Source: Verrucomicrobiaceae bacterium (GTDB lineage Bacteria; Verrucomicrobiota; Verrucomicrobiia; Verrucomicrobiales; Verrucomicrobiaceae). Taken from it: a stretch of DNA of 64,000 bases. Positions 44,757 through 44,963 of this stretch are shown in pieces. The stretch lies in NCBI GenBank assembly GCA_016795365.1, contig JAEUHN010000001.1, positions 186,001-250,000 of the forward strand, read 5' to 3'. A program made the translations under genes and the position numbers. The notes beneath the pieces were generated by a model. It searched no databases. It was not told where the DNA came from and saw nothing but the letters and a program-made list of their open reading frames with translations. Each line of letters starts with the position of its first letter. The stretch's first letter is position 1.

Positions 44757-44963
44757 TTACAGCCCAGACTGCTCCTTCAACCCATGCTGTTCGATGAAGT
44801 CCTGCTGCTTCTTCGAGGTGGGATGAATCTGTTGCTTCACCATGTTCCAAAAGAAGAATGCCAGGACCAATGCGGCCAGCTTCTCCTTCCAGCGCCGGGT
44901 GCAGGCGATCTTCAACTCATGCCCCCAGCTCACGCGTATTGTCGTCTCTTTCTTCATCGTCAT
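44757..44963 (-). CDS. 68-aa single-pass membrane protein, apparent minimal CdaR
   Basis: A short protein with a basic N-terminal segment (KIACTRRWKEK), one transmembrane helix (KLAALVLAFFFWNMVKQQI) and a short polar tail. The helix matches the N-terminal anchor of CdaR/YbbR proteins ('KLLSLLLAxxLWxYV'). The gene occupies the cdaR position, overlapping the end of cdaA by 41-47 bases and preceding glmM by 86. The YbbR repeats that normally make up the extracytoplasmic part are missing. The start is ATG at 44963 or 44957. If real, it could still tether or regulate CdaA at the membrane. Confidence 0.65.
   Translation of the reverse strand: MTMKKETTIRVSWGHELKIACTRRWKEKLAALVLAFFFWNMVKQQIHPTSKKQQDFIEQHGLKEQSGL

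Follow-up and report, generated by a model that had tools for sequence, protein, structure and literature searches.

A CdaR-like membrane anchor without YbbR domains encoded between cdaA and glmM in Verrucomicrobiota

The 64,000-nucleotide stretch of Verrucomicrobiaceae DNA analysed here (the window) encodes, next to cdaA, a 68-residue protein that is probably a single-helix membrane microprotein descended from CdaR, having lost the YbbR domains and serving as a supporting subunit at the CdaA membrane domain. This reading draws on a conserved and selected reading frame, the likeness between the anchor and the N-terminus of CdaR encoded at the same locus, a graded loss of YbbR, and in-frame fusion of the anchor to CdaA. 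Hundreds of related bacteria likewise have no more of CdaR than this anchor, which hints that it may be the part that the cyclase cannot do without. In the mechanism that we propose, CdaR would have lost all of its YbbR domains and retained the N-terminal anchor alone; the anchor would most likely sit in the membrane beside the three-helix CdaA membrane domain as a stoichiometric subunit, where it may support or set cyclase activity with no extracytoplasmic sensor.

An earlier note, made from the sequence of the window, had proposed the order cdaA, small gene, glmM at this locus, and domain matches, coordinates and strand bear this out. The small gene occupies positions 44757..44963 on the minus strand and translates as MTMKKETTIRVSWGHELKIACTRRWKEKLAALVLAFFFWNMVKQQIHPTSKKQQDFIEQHGLKEQSGL (68 aa, or 66 aa with the start at 44957). 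The product of cdaA (44917..45714, minus strand), a membrane diadenylate cyclase, has the CdaA_N membrane domain (Pfam, 3.4e-9) and the DAC domain (1.8e-37) that define CdaA. The next operon gene, glmM (43300..44670, minus strand), encodes a phosphoglucosamine mutase with all four PGM_PMM domains and is separated from the small ORF by a gap of 86 nt on the same strand. Gene order and strand are as in the cdaA-cdaR-glmM operon, the operon here being known from gene layout. The 3' end of cdaA and the 5' end of the small gene overlap in different frames (44917..44963, minus strand), and the range of 41-47 bases given for this overlap in the note is accurate: it is 47 nt when counted from the first ATG and 41 nt when counted from the third codon, the ATG of which is the sole start conserved in the nearest relative. 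A ribosome-binding-site-like AGGAGG is located inside cdaA (44969..44974, minus strand), 5 nt upstream of the first ATG of the small gene. Overlap of the two genes, or their fusion in some lineages, may keep the output of the two parts matched.

Using Pfam, we found no PF07949 (YbbR) match in the 68-residue protein, as the note had supposed, and no Pfam or NCBIfam family fits it. By domain definition it lies outside the YbbR proteins and is an anchor-only derivative. Intact YbbR proteins were also sought elsewhere in the genome, which is 6.74 Mb and 97.2% complete; none scored above the cut-off, the best match reaching 14.6 bits against a cut-off of 22.3. The genome has a single DAC protein, the CdaA of 44917-45714, and the alternative of a full-length CdaR linked to another cdaA homologue accordingly finds no counterpart in it. 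A c-di-AMP riboswitch was not found in the genome. The only Rfam match in the window is a tRNA gene at 41431-41502 on the minus strand.

We detected cdaA in 177 of 190 genomes of the order. At the 49 order loci examined in detail, the anchor is encoded by a separate short ORF at 42, is fused to CdaA at 4 and is absent from 3, and in a scan of named genomes comprising 80 loci at the level of the Verrucomicrobiales it is present in all 78 with assessable downstream sequence, 3 of them fused. Cultured bacteria with the small gene include Verrucomicrobium, Luteolibacter and Roseibacillus. The earlier note had singled out the occurrence of the short gene at the same position in relatives as a point to check, and the order as a whole and most of the class do retain the frame; a recognisable anchor is missing at six sampled CdaA loci of the class, so that the anchor is not universal. 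Outside the overlap, the window genome and its nearest relative differ by 4 nonsynonymous and 20 synonymous changes (dN 0.033, dS 1.25), and the changes in this part are distributed 5, 0 and 19 over the three codon positions; dN/dS for the small gene is about 0.03. In the family as a whole, the anchor has a median pN/pS of 0.43 in its own frame, compared with 0.90 and 1.40 in the two others. Thus, with its frame conserved this widely and under purifying selection, the small ORF is more than a chance open frame, and ORF 44757-44963 is a real gene under strong purifying selection.

These data bear directly on two alternatives. A decaying pseudogene, i.e., the leftover 5' end of a truncated cdaR, would likewise be shorter than CdaR and without its domains, but the strength of the selection, the retention of the gene over deep branches, the joining of the anchor to CdaA in one frame at two positions in the tree, and the preservation of the anchor frame despite a cdaA overlap of up to about 130 nt all speak against it. 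Refuted by dN/dS and conservation, this explanation is almost certainly wrong. The peptide could instead matter mainly for expression, its translation coupling cdaA to glmM and its product being incidental, which would suit an ORF that is short, overlaps cdaA and precedes glmM. However, selection acts at the amino-acid level, relatives in family f2 have kept the anchor even though glmM is not the next gene, and where the anchor is fused to CdaA a separately translated gene is lacking, all of which makes a coupling role highly improbable as the main function. The overlap has lengthened to 110-134 nt in several families, where the anchor helix is encoded largely or wholly within the cdaA 3' end, in a different frame (overlaps of about this length occur at loci L087, L135, L138, L144, L156, L159, L164, L165 and L169). 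At the family f2 loci and at L041 (L041, L044-L047, L049 and L052), the small ORF with its anchor is followed by a gene that by eye is bioD-like (dethiobiotin synthetase).

The resemblance of the small protein to the CdaR membrane anchor, first noticed by eye, also emerges from a whole-genome profile test. The conserved core of the anchor is a 28-residue profile match, TRRWKEKLAALVLAFFFWNMVKQQIHPT (44817..44900, minus strand), with the motif N-W-x2-K-[LI]-x-[SAC]-L-x-L-A-x3-W-x2-[IV]-[KR]. A first profile was built from 40 short proteins of the order and searched against the 12,655 open frames present in all six frames of the loci sampled; matches at E<1 occur only in the frame that follows cdaA or is joined to it, and the N-termini of full CdaRs are among them. 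A second profile of 28 columns, built from 30 short proteins of the class with no longer CdaR among them, was searched against whole genomes, blind to cdaA. In the genome of the window it found only ORF 44757-44963 (E 1.9e-12), the next match having an E of 8.7. Among 21 genomes from other classes of the phylum that have full CdaR, it recovered the N-terminal CdaR anchor in 15, and all 13 matches with E<0.1 in those genomes are the CdaR N-terminus; matches were assigned to CdaR by comparing their positions with those of YbbR.

Individual columns agree with the profile searches. The score used to place the columns favours K, A and W, and the counts therefore lean upward, a fault from which the profile tests are free. 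With this caveat, K7 is found in 73 of 74 short proteins, 29 of 29 one-YbbR intermediates and 21 of 25 full proteins, A14 in 71/74, 28/29 and 23/25, respectively, and W18 in all 74 short proteins and all 29 intermediates, with W or Y in all 25 full proteins. Column entropies of the short and full proteins are correlated (Spearman 0.69). Judged from its sequence, then, the small protein carries an N-terminal membrane anchor of the CdaR type. It might nevertheless be an unrelated small membrane protein that lies between cdaA and glmM and is like CdaR only in being one hydrophobic helix: short hydrophobic segments are alike by composition, the anchor profile has no match among solved structures, and no family model matches either. 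Against this, the profile singles out the CdaR N-terminus in whole genomes, where membrane helices abound, full CdaR has the same K-x10-W spacing and the same A14, and intermediates with one and two YbbR domains occupy the same place. An unrelated origin is therefore largely refuted and seems to us quite improbable. The anchor (NWREK..) also resembles the first CdaA helix of the order (HWRDG..), and MAFFT aligned the small proteins onto that helix; the likeness may be due to chance or may be related to packing.

Measured from the anchor, the lengths of CdaR proteins fall into groups of 41-97 aa (anchor only), 122-157 aa (one YbbR domain), 217-225 aa (two) and 302-330 aa (full); the 30 full-length loci come entirely from other classes and were chosen by their YbbR matches, and thus give no measure of frequency. 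Within the class there is a graded series consisting of the anchor with two YbbR domains, the anchor with one, the anchor only, and CdaA-anchor fusions. Of four one-domain proteins that were tested, three have a single YbbR above the Pfam cut-off, and a protein of 221 aa has two. In a CdaA tree obtained with a quick method, the clade of the window (64 rows, SH-aLRT 98) contains anchor-only and fused-anchor members and a few anchor-less ones. Two further loci (L145 and L173) are anchor-only within a one-YbbR clade (SH-aLRT 100), which implies two or more losses of the YbbR part, and loci L127, L149, L152 and L166 probably represent a further, third loss. Together, the series and the tree uphold the claim that YbbR domains were lost, and the loss is not limited to the operon of the window but extends over the whole order and much of the class. 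The idea that YbbR is nearly absent from the class as a whole was rejected as a sampling effect, since a DAC-based sample showed many one-YbbR forms.

The C-terminus of CdaA continues in frame into the anchor in Verrucomicrobium sp. BvORR034 and BvORR106 and in the MAG SSF29. CdaA-anchor fusions (loci L019, L020, L023 and L024; L175:2001-2975, L176:2001-2975 and L208:2001-2984) are found at two separate places on the CdaA tree, and in a sister genome of the first fusion group (L037) the two genes are separate. Because the C-terminal domain of CdaA is described as cytoplasmic (PMC8573169, PMC8316131), the helix in the fusions has its N-side inside the cell, which is the orientation expected of CdaR. 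The hydrophobic core of the small protein, bounded by K28 and K43, is short at 14 residues, and by charge asymmetry the N-inside orientation is favoured in only 45 of 74 anchors; the topology of the short C-terminal tail is likewise a prediction. An AlphaFold model of one natural fusion, folded on an alignment of CdaA rows and three fusions only, shows the DAC domain, the three membrane helices of CdaA and, at the end of the chain, a helix of 33 residues. The anchor helix is of moderate confidence (block pLDDT 67-79; pTM 0.54), and its packing is not settled by the model.

Other arrangements of the cyclase gene were also seen. A locus of family f106 (L155) is without a separate anchor, and its CdaA ends in the hydrophobic segment RRLVRIGICLGLALVVWGIMGVV; this CdaA is perhaps a diverged fusion. 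In a more distant clade (L089, L090, L091, L092 and L093), CdaA-type proteins of 402-547 aa have an extra C-terminal part that includes a membrane segment and what looks by eye like YbbR sequence. Pfam gave no YbbR match in the two of these long proteins that were tested, one of them only by its C-terminal part, and L089 matched DAC only.

Full-length CdaR is described as interacting with CdaA through transmembrane segments (PMC10243994; also PMC8573169, PMC6368335), while the mode of its action on CdaA is described as unclear (PMC8573169, PMC10243994). Some streptococci carry CdaA-CdaR fusions, in which the membrane segments may pair (PMC10243994). By analogy with these reports, and given the natural in-frame fusions, we infer that the small protein binds the CdaA membrane domain. 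The suggestion of the earlier note, that what has been conserved is a transmembrane contact with CdaA, fits all of the observations, the contact itself being a prediction.

Chlamydiae and Verrucomicrobia are related phyla, and the YbbR protein of the chlamydial DacA-YbbR bicistron is presumably a full-length, domain-bearing CdaR. According to PMC12422730, the Chlamydia bicistron is, like the genes considered here, a two-gene cyclase-regulator unit; co-expression of DacA and YbbR gave c-di-AMP levels about 30- to 120-fold over control, compared with 3- to 4-fold for DacA alone, and the regulator is needed for full c-di-AMP synthesis. A positive effect of the CdaR homologue in B. subtilis co-expression is cited in PMC8316131. 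On the other hand, CdaR is reported to be a negative regulator in Porphyromonas (PMC9259658) and is described as such for some gram-positive bacteria (cited in PMC12974146), and in S. aureus no CdaR effect was found (PMC6368335). With CdaR inhibitory in some bacteria and without visible effect in others, regulation by the anchor could be of either sign. The negative cases would be in keeping with a small protein that acts as an inhibitor or dominant-negative partner of CdaA; given the positive homologues in Chlamydia and B. subtilis, and given that stable fusion to CdaA would mean permanent inhibition, we consider this unlikely and favour a supporting subunit that would activate rather than inhibit the cyclase.

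Like CdaR (YbbR), the small protein is encoded right after cdaA, has a single-helix N-terminal anchor with K7, A14 and W18, and is matched by profile to CdaR of the same phylum. It differs in having no YbbR domain and only 68 aa compared with about 320, and the short form typically has W after the conserved N and a basic residue directly following the helix. The streptococcal fusions similarly indicate that cyclase and regulator can be one chain, but they are described as large CdaA-CdaR proteins (PMC10243994), whereas those of Verrucomicrobium and SSF29 hold the anchor only. CdaA-CdaR fusion as such was thus already known from streptococci, and what appears to be new is the reduction of CdaR to its anchor, of which no report was found in searches of the open-access literature on CdaA, CdaR and YbbR, with and without Verrucomicrobia, on the transmembrane interaction of CdaR and on c-di-AMP in Akkermansia.

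The anchor-only CdaR, its natural intermediates and the fusions separate the membrane contact from the sensor domains and open the question of how CdaR acts on CdaA to experiment. Should cyclase activity be restored or changed by the anchor by itself, YbbR would be only the sensor. A broader possibility, which we hold tentatively and with somewhat more doubt than belief, is that the essential ancestral job of CdaR was that of an intramembrane cyclase subunit, that the extracytoplasmic YbbR sensor was optional and lost on at least two occasions, and that in a large group of Verrucomicrobiota a helix of ~28 residues may suffice for the binding and activation of CdaA. The small protein is also a compact, defined partner with which the structure of full-length CdaA could be studied.

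Loci L094-L114 (families f7, f9, f13, f14, f16, f17, f23 and f86) encode, instead of CdaA, another DAC protein with a length of about 455 aa. The representative tested with Pfam (L096) combines a PTS EIIA-2 domain, a DacZ_P sensor domain and a DAC domain.
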